From Treponema sp. (GTDB lineage Bacteria > Spirochaetota > Spirochaetia > Treponematales > Breznakiellaceae), in the NCBI GenBank assembly GCA_031256445.1, contig JAIRQN010000097.1:1-40039 (forward strand): a stretch of DNA of 40,039 bases. Reading direction: 5' to 3'. Below are positions 13,348 through 36,154 of the stretch, in pieces. The notes under the pieces are model-generated. The model made no database searches. It saw nothing but the letters and a program-made list of their open reading frames with translations, and was not told the DNA's origin. Positions within the stretch are counted from its first letter, which is position 1; the number at the start of each line of letters is the position of its first letter. The position numbers and the translations under genes were made by a program.

Positions 13348-13923
13348 TTAATTGTGCCAGGTGATTTCTGTTACTTCAATAAATTTAACGCCTGCGTTGG
13401 AGTTCTGGAAAAGAATTCCGCCGGGAGCTTTTGTAAGCCTTGATCTTGATCCCTTGTCTGTGGAAACAACGCCGGAATATCCCATCAGGTTCATTTCTTT
13501 AAGAGGGGTATTCGGGCCAGCGTCCATTGCCGGGCCTCTCTTGTCGCCGTCAATATCATAAACCAGTACAACCATCGCATTGGTGTCGCCGGCGGGGATT
13601 TCCTCGCCTGCTTCATTGAAATATTTGCATTTGATGGTTATTCTCTGATACTGGGTAACATCAACCGGGAATTCGTCAAATATGAACATTAAATCCGCAT
13701 AATTCTTCGGGAAAGGGGTCTGATTCCTTAAAATACCTTTTCCAACTGTTTCGCCGATAGCGTCTTTTTCCGCCAATAAAACCTGGGTCAGTGTTGAAAG
13801 ATCAACAGAATAAGGCTCTCCGCCGCCTGCGCTACTGCCGGCTGCCGATGACTTGCCGCCGCTTGCGCATCCGGCAAAAGCTACGATTGCAACTACTGCA
13901 ATAATAAATCCTAACTTCTTCAT
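13348..13923 (-). CDS. Small lipoprotein of unknown family
   Basis: A 191-residue exported lipoprotein. The signal peptide MKKLGFIIAVVAIVAFAGC ends in a lipobox (AFAG-Cys19), followed by a Gly/Ser-rich tether (SGGKSSAAGSSAGGG). The rest is a compact, mostly beta-type domain with VDVTQYQRITIKCKYFNEAGEE and IKFIEVTEITWHN-like ends, resembling the jelly-roll organisation of carbohydrate-binding modules, but I do not recognise the family. AAGGAG lies upstream of the ATG. Its position tail to tail with a sugar-binding protein makes a surface glycan-related role possible and no more. Confidence 0.75.
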   Translation of the reverse strand: MKKLGFIIAVVAIVAFAGCASGGKSSAAGSSAGGGEPYSVDLSTLTQVLLAEKDAIGETVGKGILRNQTPFPKNYADLMFIFDEFPVDVTQYQRITIKCKYFNEAGEEIPAGDTNAMVVLVYDIDGDKRGPAMDAGPNTPLKEMNLMGYSGVVSTDKGSRSRLTKAPGGILFQNSNAGVKFIEVTEITWHN

Positions 13924-24054: not shown

Positions 24055-26685
24055 ATGAAGCAGAAAAAAGGCAAAGAATATAAAAGGAAGTTAACACTCA
24101 TTGTTTCAACGGTAATACTGAGTCTCGTCCTGAGCAACTGTCCGGAGCCTGAAGTGAATCAGGAGCCCGGGGAAAATCAAGAACCAGAAAATAACGCGCC
24201 TTCATTGTACGCGGCGGAATTCCGAGGAGAATGGATACGCATTGATAACGGCGACTTATGGTATATAAAAGGAAACCAAATCAAGGCGGGCAGCACAGTC
24301 ATGAACCAGAGCGTAACGCTTGCAAGGACTTCCGAAAATGTAATTACGGCAACAACAGCGGGCGGACAAAGATATACCTTATTCGCGGCGCGGGTTGCAG
24401 ATGCAGGTTTCAACGCTAAAGTAGTAATTCTTGATGAAAGTACAGCAAACAGCAGCGCTGTCAGAAGTATTACTGATATTATACCGCCGGTAAAAATAAA
24501 AAATCCCGAACAGCCGGACATGGAGATAACGGTAACACCGGATGCGCTTGGCGTTATTAACGTTCCCGGAGTTATACCGGGAGACAGGGTTGAGATTATT
24601 CCGCAATCCGATGAATGGAGCAATATTACAGTAGGGATTACGCCCGGCTACGGCAATGAGCAAAACATGGGGACAATCCCGCTTACACACGGAGATAACT
24701 TTAAAGTTTCATTAAGAATGGCAAACCCGGCAGCAAATGATATGAATGAATTATACGCTGATATGGTTCCGCGCGGCTATATTTTAGAACTTGAAAATAT
24801 CGGGACAACGCATACCGGAGAAGTAGGCTGGGAAATAGAATGGGACAGCGGTGATTATCTGGAAAGTTCATCGGGAATAATTGATGAATTCGCCAATATC
24901 CCGCCAGGTACAAAAAAACAACGCAGCCTGACTCTCACTCCAAAAACAATCGGAGCTGAGGAAACAACAAAAAATCTTATAACAATTAAAATGATGAATT
25001 ATGATTCAGTATCAAAAAGAGTCAGGGAATGGGAAGATTCTGTATCAGTTAAATACTATAATGTACCCGTATCATTTAATATTAAATCGGAAAAAAAGGT
25101 TCAGGGCGTAATAAAAGCGGGAAATGGAAAGAGTTATTATTTTAGTACGGCAAGGACAGGAACAACCGGCGACTTTGCCGTTACAAAAGAACTGCCGTGG
25201 TCAAATGATGAATATACCATAGTGTTTCTGGGAGCGGATGTAGCAGCGGAGACAGCGACAAAATATTCATTCGGAATAAACGCCGATCCTCCTACAAACT
25301 GGTCCTCTTTGAGCCAGTTTGATTTCCTGAGAGAATATAAACCTGACAACGAATTTGAAGAAACAGCTCCGGTAATTAACCTTGCAACAGGCGAAAGAAC
25401 ATTCATGGGTTATCTTGCCGGTAACAGCATTGATTATTATAAGATTGCACTGGGCAGTACGCCGCCGCCGCCGAGGGTGGGCACTGTTACTTACAACACT
25501 AACGAGGCTGATGACGGAACTGCCCCTGCGCCTGTTACCAGAGGTTTCGGCGCCAGTATAACGCTGCCCGGCCAGGAGAGTTTAGAAAGAGAAGGATATG
25601 TCTTTGACGGCTGGAATACAAATGCGGACGGCAGTGGGACAACATACGCGGCAGGAGCTTCTTATACTGTTACAGGAAATGTTACTCTCTACGCTAAGTG
25701 GGAACTTGCTACCAATACCTATACTATAACATTTAACGCCAACGGCGCGGCAAGCGGGACCGCTCCCGCCACGATGAGCGCAAACCAGAACGCAAGTATT
25801 ACACTACCTGGTCAGGGAAGTCTTACAAGAACAGGATATATATTTAACGGCTGGAACACCGCCGCAAACGGCGGCGGGACAACATACGCGGCAGGTTCTT
25901 CTTATACTGTTACCGGCAATGTTACTTTGTATGTGATTTGGATACCAATAATTGAAATGGTACAGATTAACCTAGGTACTTTTGCAAGAAACGGCTACAC
26001 AATAACATTAACCAGCGGTTTTTACATGGGAAAATATGAGGTAACTCAAGAGCAGTATCAGGCAGTTATGGGTAATAATCCAAGTGATTCATCAAACCCG
26101 GCTAGTGGCGAAATACAAGGCAGACGCCCTGTGGAGAATGTAAGATGGTATGACGCTATTGTATTCTGCAATAAGTTAAGTATGGCGGAAGGATTAACTG
26201 CGGCATACAGTATTAATGGCAGTACAGATCCTGCTATTTGGGGGACAGTACCGACAAGCAGTAACGCAACATGGAACGCTGCACAGGTTGTTGCAGGTTC
26301 TACAGGCTACCGGCTGCCTACAGAGGCGCAATGGGAATACGCGTGCAGGGCAGGGACAACAACAACCTGGTCTTTTGGAAACAATGAAAGCGGCCTTACA
26401 AATTACGCATGGTACAGCGGAAATTCAAGCAGCATGACGCATGAAGTTGGAAAGAAACTGCCTAACGCGTGGGGGTTATATGACATGCACGGGAATGTAT
26501 GGGAGTGGTGCTGGGACTGGTATGGAAGTTTACCATATACAGCGCAGACCGATCCCACGGGCGCAGTTTCCGGGAGCTACCGTCTGATACGCGGCGGGGG
26601 CTGTGGCAATTTGGCTGAGTACACTGCTTCGGCGTACCGGAACAACGGGTACAACTTTTACGGCTTCCGCATTGTGCGTCCATAG
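24055..26685 (+). CDS. Large surface lipoprotein with InlB-type repeats and FGE/C-type-lectin C-terminus
   Basis: An 876-residue exported lipoprotein. The signal segment ends in a lipobox (LVLSNC), followed by an acidic Pro/Glu/Asn tether. Residues about 40-475 form beta-rich regions of no family I recognise. Two InlB/Listeria-Bacteroides repeats follow (478-549 and 556-629, each ending in TLYAKW or TLYVIW). The last 240 residues are an FGE-sulfatase/SUMF1 domain (FYMGKYEVTQEQYQAVMG, YRLPTEAQWEYACRAG, LYDMHGNVWEWCWDW, GFRIVRP). The paired active-site cysteines of true FGE are not in place (only one Cys after RGGG), so binding and not catalysis is likely. AGGA precedes the ATG. The C-terminal end resembles the variable region of diversity-generating retroelement targets. 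Confidence 0.88.
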   Translation: MKQKKGKEYKRKLTLIVSTVILSLVLSNCPEPEVNQEPGENQEPENNAPSLYAAEFRGEWIRIDNGDLWYIKGNQIKAGSTVMNQSVTLARTSENVITATTAGGQRYTLFAARVADAGFNAKVVILDESTANSSAVRSITDIIPPVKIKNPEQPDMEITVTPDALGVINVPGVIPGDRVEIIPQSDEWSNITVGITPGYGNEQNMGTIPLTHGDNFKVSLRMANPAANDMNELYADMVPRGYILELENIGTTHTGEVGWEIEWDSGDYLESSSGIIDEFANIPPGTKKQRSLTLTPKTIGAEETTKNLITIKMMNYDSVSKRVREWEDSVSVKYYNVPVSFNIKSEKKVQGVIKAGNGKSYYFSTARTGTTGDFAVTKELPWSNDEYTIVFLGADVAAETATKYSFGINADPPTNWSSLSQFDFLREYKPDNEFEETAPVINLATGERTFMGYLAGNSIDYYKIALGSTPPPPRVGTVTYNTNEADDGTAPAPVTRGFGASITLPGQESLEREGYVFDGWNTNADGSGTTYAAGASYTVTGNVTLYAKWELATNTYTITFNANGAASGTAPATMSANQNASITLPGQGSLTRTGYIFNGWNTAANGGGTTYAAGSSYTVTGNVTLYVIWIPIIEMVQINLGTFARNGYTITLTSGFYMGKYEVTQEQYQAVMGNNPSDSSNPASGEIQGRRPVENVRWYDAIVFCNKLSMAEGLTAAYSINGSTDPAIWGTVPTSSNATWNAAQVVAGSTGYRLPTEAQWEYACRAGTTTTWSFGNNESGLTNYAWYSGNSSSMTHEVGKKLPNAWGLYDMHGNVWEWCWDWYGSLPYTAQTDPTGAVSGSYRLIRGGGCGNLAEYTASAYRNNGYNFYGFRIVRP
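25486..25941 (+). repeat. Two tandem InlB-type coding repeats
   Basis: Repeat 1 at 25486-25701 and repeat 2 at 25720-25941 encode about 72-74 residues each and share long near-identical DNA stretches such as GGGACAACATACGCGGCAG. Recent duplication or gene conversion inside the gene is likely. Confidence 0.8.
26590..26685 (+). other. Possible variable region of the FGE-fold lipoprotein
   Basis: The last 31 codons read from RGGG to GFRIVRP. In known retroelement targets such as T. denticola TvpA, the variable region occupies exactly this end of an FGE/C-type-lectin fold. The segment has several AAC and TAC codons on the ligand face (YRNNGYNFYGFR). No template repeat or reverse transcriptase is in the window. 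Confidence 0.4.
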
Positions 26686-26692
26686 GAGTTAT

Positions 26693-26726
26693 ACATTAAA
26701 AATGCCATCCTTGGCATTTTTAATGT
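26693..26726 (+). terminator. Perfect 15-bp hairpin after the lipoprotein gene
   Basis: ACATTAAAAATGCCA (26693-26707) and TGGCATTTTTAATGT (26712-26726) form a 15-bp stem with a 4-base loop, 7 bases after the stop codon. It probably ends transcription in both directions. A short-loop cruciform just after the variable region is also what retroelement targets carry. A second hairpin, AGCGGC/GCCGCT, follows at 26738-26754. Confidence 0.65.
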
Positions 26727-27178
26727 GGCTTTTGTTTAGCGGCCTCCTGCCGCTTAAGTTAGCAGCGGGGAGTGGAGGAGTTTGCAGCTAACAGAGCGTA
26801 GAGAAGGATAAATAAAGAGATTTACCACGAACAGGTCCGAACAAGCCCGAACCTGTAATTAAATTATCTGGAATTTAGAGCCAATAATCAAAACAACAGG
26901 TTTGTGTGGTTCGTGGTAAAAAAAATAAAGAGATTCACCACGAACAGGTCCTAACGACACGAACTAATTAATTTTTTTTTTGGTCTGTTCGCGGCTGGGC
27001 ATGGAGCAGGAACGGGCAGGCGGTGTTTAGCCGTTTAAGCGAGCAGGGAACAGAGAATGGAGGGGAGGTAGTAGTATGAAGTGAGGAGCGAGGAACGTGG
27101 AACTTTTATCTGATCGTTTTGCGTTCAATCTTGACAGGGATTCTGGTAATAAAGAATAAATAATGTATATAAATATAG
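26727..27178. other. Gene-free stretch with repeats before the cassette cluster
   Basis: No gene is supported. A 28-base direct repeat with one mismatch lies at 26811-26838 and 26924-26951 (core ACCACGAACAGGTCC). An inverted copy of part of it (GGTTCGTGGTAAA) ends at 26920. The rest is low-complexity purine-rich sequence that becomes AT-rich towards 27178. TTGACA at 27131 lacks a matching -10 box. Confidence 0.6.
26811..26951. repeat. 28-base direct repeat pair with inverted arm
   Basis: Copies at 26811-26838 and 26924-26951 are identical except for one base. The inverted segment before 26920 lets the right half fold (CGTGGT/ACCACG). It looks like non-coding repeat sequence and not a mobile gene. 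Confidence 0.6.
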
Positions 27179-27231: not shown

Positions 27232-27909
27232 ATGAACCACTTTTCACAACTTTCAGAATTTATAGCTGCTCTTGTAAATGATTTCTTTAATTTTGATAAT
27301 AATTTAGAAAAATATATTCTTCATAATGATCCAAATGCGCCGTATCCAATGTTAATTACAAATGTAAATCCATTAATAATTAGAACATGTGTTAAAGATA
27401 ACGTATGGGATCAATTTTCCTATCAATTTTCACATGAATATACACATTTAGTAATACGATCTTTTAAAAATGATAAAAATAAATATTTAAAATGGTTTGA
27501 GGAAACAATCTGCGAATCAATGTCTCTGTTTACATTAATACATTTATCCAATAATTGGAAATTGTGTCCATTTTATAGTTTAAATACTAATTATAGTGAT
27601 TCAATAAAAAAATATTTTGAAAATGAATATAAAAAATCAGGATCAAAATTAAAATTTTGTAAAAATCATTTGGAATTAAAGAAAATAGATAATACTTGTG
27701 AGAGTTGTCGTGAAGAAAGATATGATGAAAGAAATTTTGTATATAAAGTAATTTCAAATTATAATGAAAAAGTAAAAATAATATTTGATTATACAAATTA
27801 TATTTCAAATAATGATTTACTCATAGATTTTGATTCATGGGTAAATAAATATGATGATGAATATAGAGACATAATAAATGAAATAAAGAAAATACAGCCT
27901 ATATTCTAA
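27232..27909 (+). CDS. Cassette-borne HExxH protein, putative metallopeptidase
   Basis: A 225-residue soluble protein with no signal peptide. FSHEYTH (about residues 67-73) is a zinc-protease HExxH motif. WFEETICESMSLF about 20 residues later can supply the third, glutamate ligand in gluzincin fashion. A second possible metal site has FCKNH and CESC at about residues 142-163. I do not recognise the family. The very AT-rich composition sets it apart from chromosomal neighbours and indicates transfer. It is the only gene of cassette 1 and lies behind a promoter that would give a leaderless message. A stress, defence or toxin role is common for cassette genes but is not shown here. Confidence 0.75.
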   Translation: MNHFSQLSEFIAALVNDFFNFDNNLEKYILHNDPNAPYPMLITNVNPLIIRTCVKDNVWDQFSYQFSHEYTHLVIRSFKNDKNKYLKWFEETICESMSLFTLIHLSNNWKLCPFYSLNTNYSDSIKKYFENEYKKSGSKLKFCKNHLELKKIDNTCESCREERYDERNFVYKVISNYNEKVKIIFDYTNYISNNDLLIDFDSWVNKYDDEYRDIINEIKKIQPIF

Positions 27910-31232: not shown

Positions 31233-32240
31233 ATGAGTAAGCTGAACATACCAGACGGTTACAGGCCGGTTTTGTCTTTATACGAAACCCAGACCGCTAT
31301 TGGTACGATAAAAAGGCTGTTCGAGGATTATCTGTACCGCGCTCTAAACCTGAAGCGCGTTTCAGCGCCGCTATTTGTCGAGCCGCAGACGGGTTTGAAT
31401 GACGATCTGAATGGCGTAGAGCGTCCTGTCGAGTTTGACATCGCAGAGACAAAGACAAACGCGCAGATTGTTCATTCACTTGCCAAATGGAAGCGTATGG
31501 CGCTCTACAAATACGGTTTCCCTGTTGGCGAAGGGCTCTGCACGGATATGAACGCCATCCGCCGTGACGAGGAAATGGATAACATTCATTCCATATATGT
31601 TGATCAATGGGATTGGGAAGTTGTAATTGACAGGGAAATGCGGAACGAAAGTTACCTGAAAAAAACCGTCTCAGACATTGTCGGCGCGATTTGCGATACG
31701 GCGGAAAAAATAAAGGAGATTTACCCTGAACTGAAAGTCTGCCTTTCGCGGGACGTTAAGTTTGTAACGACCCAGCAGCTTGAAGATATGTATCCGCAGA
31801 TGAGTCCAAAGGAGAGGGAGAACGTTTATTTGGAAGAGAACAAGACCGCGTTCATCATGCAGATCGGCGATTTACTGAAGTCGAGGAATAAGCATGACGG
31901 GCGCGCTCCCGACTACGATGACTGGACGCTGAACGGAGACATTGTTTTCTGGAACGATGTTTTAAAGTGCGCCTTTGAAATTTCTTCGATGGGGATTCGC
32001 GTGGATTCCGCGGCTCTTGACTCGCAGTTGGAGAAAGCGAAGTGCGGGCACAGAAGGCAGCTTCCGTTTCATAAAATGCTGCTGGAAGGAAAACTTCCGC
32101 TGACAATGGGCGGCGGCATCGGGCAGTCAAGGCTGTGTATGCTGATGCTGGAAAAAGCGCACATCGGGGAAGTGCAGGTTTCCGTGTGGGATAAAGAAAC
32201 ATTAACCGGATGTAATGAAGCCGGTATCAAAATATTATAA
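31233..32240 (+). CDS. asnA: Aspartate-ammonia ligase (ammonia-dependent asparagine synthetase)
   Basis: A 335-residue cytoplasmic enzyme that makes asparagine from aspartate, ammonia and ATP (to AMP and pyrophosphate) on a class II aminoacyl-tRNA-synthetase fold. Recognisable segments include [17 protein letters not shown] at the start, [20 protein letters not shown], and [17 protein letters not shown] with [10 protein letters not shown] near the end. Length equals the E. coli family. AGGGAG lies upstream of the ATG. It leads an operon with type III glutamine synthetase (10-base gap) behind an attenuator and provides an ammonia-assimilating route when ammonium is plentiful. Confidence 0.96.
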
Positions 32241-32250
32241 GGAGAGAAAC

Positions 32251-34347
32251 ATGAAAAACATTCCGGAATTATTCGGAAGCATGGTTTTTAATGACCCTGT
32301 TATGAAACAGCGGCTTCCGAAAGACATTTACAGGGCGTTTATAAAGACGATGCAGCAGGGGAAGCATCTTGAACTTGATATCGCCAATGTTGTCGCAAGC
32401 GCGATGAAAGAATGGGCGGTAGAAAAAGGCGCGACGCACTTTACCCACTGGTTCCAGCCGATGACAGGAACAACCGCGGAAAAACACGATTCGTTTATTT
32501 CGCCGACAAACGACGGCAAGGTAATCATGGAGTTTTCGGGCAAGGAGCTGGTGCGCGGAGAGCCTGACGCGTCAAGTTTCCCGTCCGGCGGGTTACGCGC
32601 AACATTTGAAGCCAGGGGCTACACAGTCTGGGACACGACCTCGTACGCGTTCATTAAAAACGGCACCCTCTGCATCCCGACGGCTTTCTGTTCGTACTCA
32701 GGCGAAGCGCTCGACAAAAAGACGCCGCTTCTGCGTTCAATGGAAGCAGTTGACAAACAGGCCCTTCGCATACTCAAGCTGTTCGGCAACACAACAGCCC
32801 AGCGCGTTATTACAACCGTGGGTCCTGAGCAGGAATATTTTCTTATTGATAAAGAAGCGTTCCTTAAGCGCCCGGATTTGATCTATACAGGAAGGACTTT
32901 GTTCGGAGCGCGTCCGCCCAAGGGACAGGAGCTTGAAGATCATTACTTCGGATGCATCAAGCCGCGCGTTTCCGATTTTATGAAAGAACTTGACGAAGAA
33001 CTGTGGAAGCTCGGCGTTTACGCCAAGACAAAACACAACGAAGTCGCTCCCGCTCAGCATGAGCTGGCTCCGGTATTTTCCACAACAAATATCGCGACCG
33101 ATCACAATCAGATCACAATGGAACTGATGAAAACCATCGCCAACAAGCACGGCTTTGCCTGCCTGCTTCATGAAAAACCGTTCGCGGGAGTTAACGGAAG
33201 CGGCAAGCATAACAACTGGTCAATAAGCACTGACACCGGACTTAATCTGCTTGAGCCAGGCGACACCCCGCAGGATAACGCCCAGTTCCTGCTTTTCCTT
33301 GTCGCGCTCATCAAGGCGATTGACGAGTATCAGGATTTAATGCGCCTGTCCGCCGCAAGCGCGGCTAACGATCACCGCCTTGGCGCGAACGAAGCGCCAC
33401 CGGCGATTATTTCAATGTTTATCGGCGATGAACTAAAAGAGATCCTTGACGCTATAGAGGGAGGAACCGCCTACAAGGGAAAGGAAAAACATGATATGGA
33501 GATCGGAGTAATGGTGCTGCCGAATTTTCCGAAGGACTCAACAGACCGCAACCGCACGTCTCCTTTCGCGTTCACGGGAAACAAGTTTGAGTTCCGCATG
33601 CTCGGCTCTACTTTTTCAATCGCGGGACCAAACATTGTGCTTAACACAATAACCGCCGAAGCGCTCTGTCAGTTTGCCGACATTCTGGAAAAATCAGGCG
33701 ACTTTAATACTGACCTTGCCGCGCTTGTCAAGAAGACATACAGCGAGCATAAAAGAATCATTTTTAACGGCAACAATTATTCCGAAGAATGGGTTGCGGA
33801 AGCGCAGAAACGGGGGCTTTCAAATTTAAAAACCACAGTTGACGCCCTGCCCAAATTTATCGAGAAGAAAAGCATTGACCTCTTTACAAAGCATCATGTA
33901 TTTACGGAAAGCGAGGTAAATTCGCGTTATGAGATAATGATGGAATCCTATTGCAAGACGCTTCATATAGAAGCGCTGACAATGGTGGACATGGTCAAAG
34001 GAGCGATAATTCCATCGTGCATGGATTATCAGCGCGAACTGATTGATCTTCTGCGCCAGAAGAAAGCGTACGGCGGCGTCTCCTTTGATTGTTCGCTTGA
34101 GGAACATTTCCTGAACAGCATCACAAAACTGTCGGCGTGTCTTTTAAAGAAACTGACCGCTCTTGAAAGCGCTGTTCTGGAATCATCCCAGGAGAGGGAG
34201 ATACTCGCGCAGGCAGCTTTCTACCGCGACAACATTTTTACGGCAATGTCGGAACTCAGGCTCATCGTTGACGAGCTGGAAACGCTGGTCGCGCGAAAGC
34301 ACTGGCCCATCCCCACATACGCGGAGATGTTGTACTCTGTGATCTAG
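32251..34347 (+). CDS. glnN: Glutamine synthetase type III
   Basis: A 698-residue cytoplasmic enzyme of the GSIII class, which condenses ammonia and glutamate with ATP to glutamine as double-ring dodecamers. The N-terminal GSIII extension starts [19 protein letters not shown]. The catalytic core shows [40 protein letters not shown] and [21 protein letters not shown]. The C-terminal helical part continues to the usual length. The start is ATG 32251 with GGAGAG 4 bases upstream; the longer frame from 32215 would overlap asnA. GSIII occurs in Bacteroides, cyanobacteria, spirochaetes and some firmicutes and is not controlled by adenylylation, so the leader attenuator is probably a main control point. 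Confidence 0.96.
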
Positions 34348-34367
34348 AGGCGTGGAATGAGAATGGC

Positions 34368-34401
34368 GGTATCTGAAAAGTGACAAACTTCTCGGACAAC
34401 C
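34368..34401. repeat. Dispersed hairpin repeat, degenerate copy 4
   Basis: GGTATCTGA-AAAGT...AACTT-CTCGGACAACC keeps the inner AAGT/ACTT arms and the GGACA half of the repeat at 8066, 8153 and 13231, with mismatches in the outer stem. It again lies just after a stop codon. Confidence 0.55.
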
Positions 34402-34424
34402 CCTTCTTAACTATATAACTTATT

Positions 34425-34455
34425 AACGGCGTTGCCGTTCACACAAAGGCGTGTG
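34425..34455 (+). promoter_or_regulatory. Tandem hairpins with AAAGGC loop before amt
   Basis: AACGGC-GTT-GCCGTT (34425-34439) is followed directly by CACAC-AAAGGC-GTGTG (34440-34455). The second has the same six-base loop as the asnA hairpin on a stem of different sequence, and its right half begins the terminator that follows. Two adjacent hairpins with the second overlapping a terminator is the layout of ANTAR targets. TATAAC near 34415 may be the -10 box. Confidence 0.65.
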
Positions 34456-34505
34456 TTTTTGTTTGCATATTTTTTGCAGGCAAGAACATACGCCGTTTTT
34501 TTTTT
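34448..34505 (+). terminator. Leader terminator (attenuator) of amt
   Basis: A 19-bp stem pairs 34448-34466 with 34476-34494 (GGCGTGTG against CATACGCC, then TTTTTGTTTGC against GCAGGCAAGAA with G-U pairs). It has a 9-base loop and a run of ten T at 34496-34505. The amt ribosome binding site GGAGGG follows immediately. Confidence 0.88.
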
Positions 34506-34519
34506 GGAGGGAAAGTATT

Positions 34520-36154
34520 ATGGACTTTCAAATTTGGTTTCTGGTAGGCGTTGCGCTGGTATTCTTTATGCAATGCGGTTTTGCAATGCTCGAGGCGGGT
34601 TTTACACGGGCAAAAAACGCGGGCAATATCATCATGAAAAACCTGATGGATTTTGGCCTTGGCGCAATCGCCTTTATGCTGCTTGGTTACTGCCTTCTTG
34701 CGGCGGAAGATTACGTATTCGGACTGATTGGAATTCCGAATCTCGGCATTCTGACAGATTATAAAAATTTCGATTACTCCGATTTTATTTTTAATCTGGT
34801 CTTCTGCGCTACAGCGGCGACAATTGTATCGGGCGCGATGGCTGAGCGCACCAAGTTCAGCGCTTACTGCATTTACAGTATTGTGATCAGCGCGGTTATT
34901 TATCCAATCGAAGCCGGCTGGGTGTGGAACGGAAGCGGCTGGCTTGCACAGCTCGGCTTTCTTGATTTCGCGGGGTCGGCGGCTATTCACATGGTCGGCG
35001 GCATTTCCGCGTTCCTCGGCGCGGCTTTTCTTGGTCCGCGTATCGGCAAGTATGCCAAAGACGGAAAAGCCCGCGCCATTCCCGGCCACAGCCTAACGCT
35101 GGGCGCTCTTGGCGTGTTTATTCTGTGGTTTGGCTGGTATGGTTTCAACGGCGCGGCCGCCGGAAATGTGAGCGAACTCGGTTCAATTTTTGTTACGACA
35201 ACAATTGCCGCTACCTCCGCTTCTGTCGCGACTATGGCTTTTACATGGATTAAAACCGGAAAGCCGGACGTGTCAATGTCGCTTAACGGCGCGCTGGCGG
35301 GTCTTGTTGGCATAACGGCAGGCTGCGCGTTCGTTGACGCTGTCGGAGCGCTCACCATCGGTTTGTGCGCCGGCGTTCTTGTAGTTCTTGCGGTTGAGTT
35401 TATTGACATAAAACTCCGCGTGGATGATCCTGTAGGCGCGGTCGCGGTGCACGGCGTATGCGGCGTTTGGGGGACAATAGCCGTTGGTTTTTTTGCCGTA
35501 GAAGACGGCCTGTTTTACAGCGGCGACGCGCGCCTGCTTGGAATACAGTCGCTCGGCGTTCTGACAATCGCGGCCTGGACTTTCGCGACAGTCGGGTTAA
35601 CATTTTTCATAATAAAGAAAATCAACGGACTGCGCGTTTCAAAACAGGATGAAATTTCCGGCCTTGATATTACAGAACACGGTCTTGCGAGCAGTTACGC
35701 CGACTTTATGATTTCTTCCTCAGGTTCCTATGCGCCCGCGGCGGAGACGGTTCCGGAAAATGCGGCAATTCCGGTCGTTAACAATTCAAAGCCAGGCGCG
35801 AAAATGACAAAGGTAGTTATCATTACAAAGAAGAACATGTTTGAAGGTTTGAAAGCGTCTTTCGACAGGATCGGAGTAACCGGTATGACTGTAACCCAGG
35901 TTCTCGGCTGCGGTATGCAGAGGGGCAGAAAGGAATTCTATCGCGGCATTCCGCTTGAATCGACGCTTCTGCCCAAGATTAAAATTGAAGTAGTTATCTG
36001 CAAAGTGCCGCTAAAACTCTTTGTCGATACCGTTAAGAAAGCGCTTTACACGGGCAATGTCGGAGACGGCAAGATCTTCATTTATGATGTTGAAAATGTC
36101 GTGAAAGTACGCACAGGAGAAGAGGGATACGACGCGCTTCAGGATGAGGCGTAA
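34520..36154 (+). CDS. amt: Ammonium transporter fused to a PII signalling domain
   Basis: A 544-residue inner-membrane ammonium channel (about residues 1-400, eleven hydrophobic segments) joined to a complete GlnB/GlnK-type domain (429-544). Channel landmarks are the pore histidines in AAIHMVGG and VAVHGVCGVWG, and LDFAGS with the structural Asp. The PII part opens MTKVVIITKKNMFEGLKASF and ends with the ATP-binding TGNVGDGKIFIYDVENVVKVRTGE. It has a tyrosine in the T-loop (Tyr474), but the loop is unlike GlnK in detail. In most bacteria GlnK is separate and plugs Amt when nitrogen is plentiful; fusion would make this gating built in. The start at 34520 has GGAGGG upstream; the longer open frame runs back through the terminator. 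Confidence 0.95.
   Translation: MDFQIWFLVGVALVFFMQCGFAMLEAGFTRAKNAGNIIMKNLMDFGLGAIAFMLLGYCLLAAEDYVFGLIGIPNLGILTDYKNFDYSDFIFNLVFCATAATIVSGAMAERTKFSAYCIYSIVISAVIYPIEAGWVWNGSGWLAQLGFLDFAGSAAIHMVGGISAFLGAAFLGPRIGKYAKDGKARAIPGHSLTLGALGVFILWFGWYGFNGAAAGNVSELGSIFVTTTIAATSASVATMAFTWIKTGKPDVSMSLNGALAGLVGITAGCAFVDAVGALTIGLCAGVLVVLAVEFIDIKLRVDDPVGAVAVHGVCGVWGTIAVGFFAVEDGLFYSGDARLLGIQSLGVLTIAAWTFATVGLTFFIIKKINGLRVSKQDEISGLDITEHGLASSYADFMISSSGSYAPAAETVPENAAIPVVNNSKPGAKMTKVVIITKKNMFEGLKASFDRIGVTGMTVTQVLGCGMQRGRKEFYRGIPLESTLLPKIKIEVVICKVPLKLFVDTVKKALYTGNVGDGKIFIYDVENVVKVRTGEEGYDALQDEA

Follow-up and report, generated by a model that had tools for sequence, protein, structure and literature searches.

Probable targets of a TvpA-type diversity-generating retroelement dispersed through a Treponema genome with no reverse transcriptase or template repeat in its assembly

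The lipoprotein gene at positions 24055 to 26685 (forward strand) of the window, a term used here for the whole 40,039-nucleotide stretch of DNA that was analysed, raises the question of whether its 3' end is, or once was, the target of a diversity-generating retroelement (DGR) whose reverse transcriptase (RT) and template repeat (TR) lie elsewhere. The window is an entire contig (C62) of a metagenome-assembled genome (MAG) of 2.79 Mb in 107 contigs, 97.7% complete; its nearest named relatives are mostly Treponema MAGs, with isolate names that suggest a possible link to termite guts. The reading developed below, to which a probability of roughly 0.87 is assigned, is that positions 26560 to 26685 constitute the variable region (VR) of a TvpA-type DGR, one among several dispersed targets that were once rewritten from a common template.

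The 876-amino acid product of this DGR-type target gene begins with MKQKKGKEYKRKLTLIVSTVILSLVLSNC, a plausible spirochaete lipoprotein signal (its lipobox was judged by eye), carries two Listeria-Bacteroides (Flg_new) repeats, the best stretch by Pfam being residues 556 to 626, and ends in an FGE-sulfatase/C-type-lectin domain (residues 649 to 875; positions 25999 to 26679, forward strand; Pfam E-value 2e-37). Homology to TvpA of T. denticola, the nearest solved structure (2Y3C), is present in sequence across this domain at a phmmer E-value of 5e-63, true FGE enzymes reaching only about 1e-11, and a solved homologue at that level settles the fold. Both searches agree with a preliminary description of this DNA, in which the gene was taken to encode a lipoprotein ending in such a domain. 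The alignment with TvpA extends to the motif YRNN, the window protein having T where TvpA retains Cys. The formylglycine-generating enzymes (SUMF1 and bacterial FGE) represent the same common fold family (PF03781), and at the positions that we take to be those of their catalytic Cys pair (the RGGSxxCxxxxC region) the window protein, which reads RGGGCGNLAEYT, has no Cys at either place, as had been pointed out previously. The protein is not expected to act as an FGE enzyme; it is predicted to be a surface lipoprotein, which would be displayed on the cell and bind a ligand.

The end of this domain, RGGGCGNLAEYTASAYRNNGYNFYGFRIVRP, comprises exactly 31 codons (positions 26590 to 26682) followed by the stop codon, such that the VR forms the 3' end of the FGE-domain gene. 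That these codons occupy the site at which TvpA varies, as proposed in the preliminary description, was confirmed, and TvpA is itself a DGR target. The interval suggested at that time, 26590 to 26685, covers the main part of the VR, but the start was moved some 30 bases upstream, to near position 26560, because the codons at 26578 to 26580 and 26587 to 26589 also vary among the copies in the genome. The start was placed by homology to the template repeats of congeners and, compared with full-length VRs, the region so delimited (26560 to 26685, forward strand; assigned by homology to congener VR/TR pairs) is internally shortened. Its 3' end, GGCTTCCGCATTGTGCGTCCATAG (26662 to 26685, forward strand), corresponds to the end at which homing initiates and has diverged from the GGCTTCCGGCTTCTTCGCCCCTGA of its paralogues.

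A query with positions 26440 to 26690 returned close copies in the same genome on contigs C103 (two, denoted C103a and C103b), C51, C49 (two), C101 and C26, together with others that are more distant. The C103 locus (L180:3465-5975; G000:C103) encodes a single protein of 837 residues with two FGE domains, each having its own VR at its end; the first VR is internal, and Listeria-Bacteroides repeats come after it. On C49, near 40.5k (L182:4482-5693 and the sequence upstream), a caspase-like domain, recognized by eye, is joined to an FGE domain that has a VR, and the N-terminal part of the gene lies in another reading frame, the frameshift belonging either to the genome or to its assembly.

Evidence for the origin of these copies came from related species. 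A template was guessed from the VRs of the genome itself by placing asparagine AAC codons at the variable sites, and it matched a sequence of the congener G005 at an E-value of 8e-28; the matched sequence is the TR of a complete DGR, which also has an FGE target gene and an RT and in which mismatches between VR and TR occur almost exclusively at template adenines. The same association of FGE-target VR, RT and TR, again with mismatches almost only at template adenines, was found in G004, G009, G014 and G024, and the RTs of the congener DGRs carry the motif IGN[LV]TSQ, which we take to be typical of DGR RTs. In the comparison of these five congeners (G004, G005, G009, G014 and G024; loci L042, L034, L033, L040 and L035) with the window family, template and VR agree in sequence, frame and layout of the 3' end; they differ in that the congeners possess complete VR-RT-TR cassettes, whereas the genome under study has VRs only. 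In a further genome, G013, an FGE target adjoins a template repeat (L287; C41:535-1374 and 1616-1722); the 9 kb that were read there contain no RT, and the sole RT match of that genome is on a different contig, accompanied by its own, different template. A second type of congener DGR, not of the FGE type, was seen at L038, L041 and L046, where the templates end in VRAVRGF and the targets in VRAVRAF.

With the adenines of the G005 template serving as a mask, an outside proxy for the genome's own template, 25 of 30 adenine columns were variable among the five alignable VRs, compared with 19 of 78 other columns (Fisher's exact test, 3e-8); the codon alignment was made by hand, with gaps in two copies and the divergent copies at C49:53899 and on C101 excluded. 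Sliding the mask by 1 to 4 bases lowered the number of variable adenine columns from 25 to between 11 and 19. Variability by codon position followed the order 1 > 2 > 3 within the VR, but was concentrated at position 3, far above positions 1 and 2, in the 150 bases upstream. The pair formed by C49 and C103b is only 75% identical upstream (37 of 150 columns differ), whereas within the VR it differs at 2 of 63 non-adenine columns (p = 5e-5 against upstream) and at 15 of 30 adenine columns; the non-adenine columns of the VR are homogenized between these two copies. Copying from one common template accounts for the match to the mask, the reversal of codon positions and the homogenization together, which ordinary selection on paralogues does not.

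The VR of the window gene itself appears less fresh. Relative to the other copies it is changed at 11 of 23 adenine columns and at 10 of 70 non-adenine columns (p = 0.003), which makes its adenine bias the weakest among the five alignable VRs and its non-adenine changes the most numerous, six of the ten falling within the last 13 bases. Its nearest paralogue, C103a, is 93% identical upstream and has variable codons in common with it (TAC, in two places), which suggests that this VR arrived with a gene duplication and not through a fresh round of rewriting. The copy appears to be eroded, and it has probably not been rewritten recently; given the non-adenine changes, the shortening of the VR and the codons in common with C103a, it is judged to be a relic, or a target that at most works poorly today.

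As proposed here, one adenine-rich template would once have rewritten several dispersed targets by mutagenic retrohoming. By analogy with the DGRs that have been studied, an error-prone RT would have copied the template RNA, misreading its adenines, and the resulting cDNA would have replaced the 3' end of each target, such that the predicted surface lipoprotein would present a lectin-fold binding face that had been diversified; the RT and the template, which make up the core, would either lie in an unassembled gap or have been lost. Past retrohoming in this lineage is what the sequences appear to record. The earlier proposal that a retroelement acts on this gene from elsewhere is supported in part: the FGE C-terminus bears the signature of a DGR VR, and intact DGRs of the matching type occur in the genus, while current action is unsupported in view of the lack of an RT or template in the assembly, the non-adenine changes, the shortened VR and the variable codons shared with C103a.

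The core was sought in several ways. No RT was detected with Pfam RVT_1 (PF00078) anywhere in the 97.7%-complete, 107-contig assembly, the window included, nor was there any match in it to a profile built from eight congener DGR RTs. Three kinds of search for a template in the same genome, using DNA similarity, a mismatch-tolerant pattern and the guessed template, returned VR-like copies only. The statement in the preliminary description that the window has neither RT nor template repeat thus extends to the assembled genome as a whole, where the check it had recommended, a near-copy of the VR next to an RT, likewise yielded VR-like copies and no RT. The VR core motif was then sought in 150 genomes of the family and in IMG/VR with no template recognized elsewhere, two distant matches with two mismatches each turning up, and a scan of IMG/VR for the RT retrieved distant relatives only, the best at 44% identity. 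We infer that the DGR core is either unassembled or lost from this genome.

Such an arrangement is already known. Eight of 17 isolates of T. denticola were found to carry two to six targets without a TR or RT (Nimkulrat et al., 2016; PMC4891356), and the window gene is a further case. The TvpA system resembles the present one in its FGE/C-type-lectin lipoprotein targets, several of them dispersed per genome, in variation at template adenines and in the existence of genomes with targets and no core (PMC4891356); it differs in belonging to another species group, and the window target for its part carries Listeria-Bacteroides repeats ahead of the FGE domain, with no core found in its genome. FGE/C-type-lectin variable domains and candidate remote targets also characterize the DGR-diversified putative antigen sensors of multicellular bacteria (PMC10907252), to which the caspase-like fusion on C49 is similar, whereas the window gene encodes a predicted surface lipoprotein and not a conflict-system protein. 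Surveys confined to the neighbourhood of an RT miss remote targets (Roux et al.; PMC8144416). The present Treponema MAG is one more clear example of DGR targets dispersed at a distance from any core, and an adenine mask borrowed from a related species made it possible to recognize orphan targets in a fragmented assembly with neither RT nor template.

Regarding the fate of the core, its loss from the lineage, leaving the scattered VRs as inherited relics that drift and spread by gene duplication, is given somewhat better than even odds. The failure to find either RT or TR in an assembly of this completeness is consistent with loss, as are the non-adenine drift of the window copy, the congeners G003, G020 and G027, which likewise hold VR-like copies with no RT match, and the precedent in T. 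denticola (PMC4891356); the near identity of C103b and C49 at non-adenine columns (2 of 63), which suggests that rewriting was not very old, and the fragmentation of the assembly argue in the other direction. It is rather unlikely that the window VR is instead a live target, rewritten in trans by a complete core in the unassembled part of the genome. At least five congeners do carry intact DGRs of the matching type, and three of the eight target genes lie at contig ends or no more than a few hundred bases away, as a TR/VR repeat would cause: C26 breaks just ahead of its VR, and C51 and C49 end soon past theirs. Of the assembly, 3% lies within 400 bases of a contig end, which gives P about 0.0014 for the excess of target genes there (about 0.0004-0.005 with other choices of distance), and for this reason the core may sit in an assembly gap. 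Against current rewriting of the window copy, however, stand its 10 non-adenine changes and altered 3' end, the alleles in common with C103a that suggest duplication, and a sequence after the stop codon without the TGAGTTCTGC context that congener VRs have. The broader notion that a single unassembled core diversifies the dispersed FGE targets in trans, including the C103 protein with its two VRs and the caspase-FGE fusion, is rather unlikely; if true, several surface or intracellular sensors would be reshuffled from one template. That no retroelement was ever involved, and that these are ordinary FGE-like paralogues whose binding face is subject to diversifying selection, is very improbable: FGE/C-type-lectin domains do occur commonly in Treponema and are variable there, but selection leaves unexplained why variation should track the adenines of another species' template while neighbouring silent positions are more alike in the VR than in the gene upstream.

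A separate question concerns the inverted repeat at positions 26693 to 26726, ACATTAAAAATGCCA-TCCT-TGGCATTTTTAATGT, whose 15-bp arms pair perfectly around a 4-base loop and which lies 7 bases past the stop codon, exactly as previously described, and could be either a terminator or a homing cruciform. In DGRs, a hairpin or cruciform with a GRNA loop downstream of the VR is common and not strictly defining, its description coming from phage DGRs. Among 2000 60-mers drawn at random from the window, 1997 had no stem longer than 9 bp, and near-copies of the repeat occur 3' of three other FGE genes (C103:21422, C101:49.4k and C103:5570). The published homing cruciform has a GC-rich stem of 7-10 bp and a GRNA loop and is found 4-34 bases after the stop (PMC3240598). 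The distance of the present repeat agrees with this and, together with the near-copies, favours a cruciform marking a DGR target; the 15-bp AT-rich stem (4 of 15 pairs GC), the loop TCCT, the A5 and T5 runs flanking a short GC core in the manner of a bidirectional terminator, and the inconsistent occurrence of a hairpin after congener FGE targets all speak against it, as does a second 15-bp hairpin with a 4-base loop after an unrelated window gene. This identification is considered rather unlikely, and the repeat was rejected as proof of a DGR in view of its AT-rich stem, non-GRNA loop and terminator-like form. The unrelated gene (13348 to 13923, reverse strand) is followed by a perfect hairpin with A/T runs that is likely an ordinary terminator.

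Farther downstream, positions 26810 to 26966 hold a dispersed repeat with palindromic parts (CCACGAACAGG and GGTTCGTGG), copies of which occur on C59, C101, C49, C97 and other contigs, some of them after FGE genes. The gene at 27232 to 27909 encodes a protein of 225 residues with no Pfam match and a HEYTH motif as in zinc peptidases, and positions 31233 to 36154 comprise a nitrogen cluster of AsnA, a glutamine synthetase of type III and an ammonium transporter that has a fused P-II domain.
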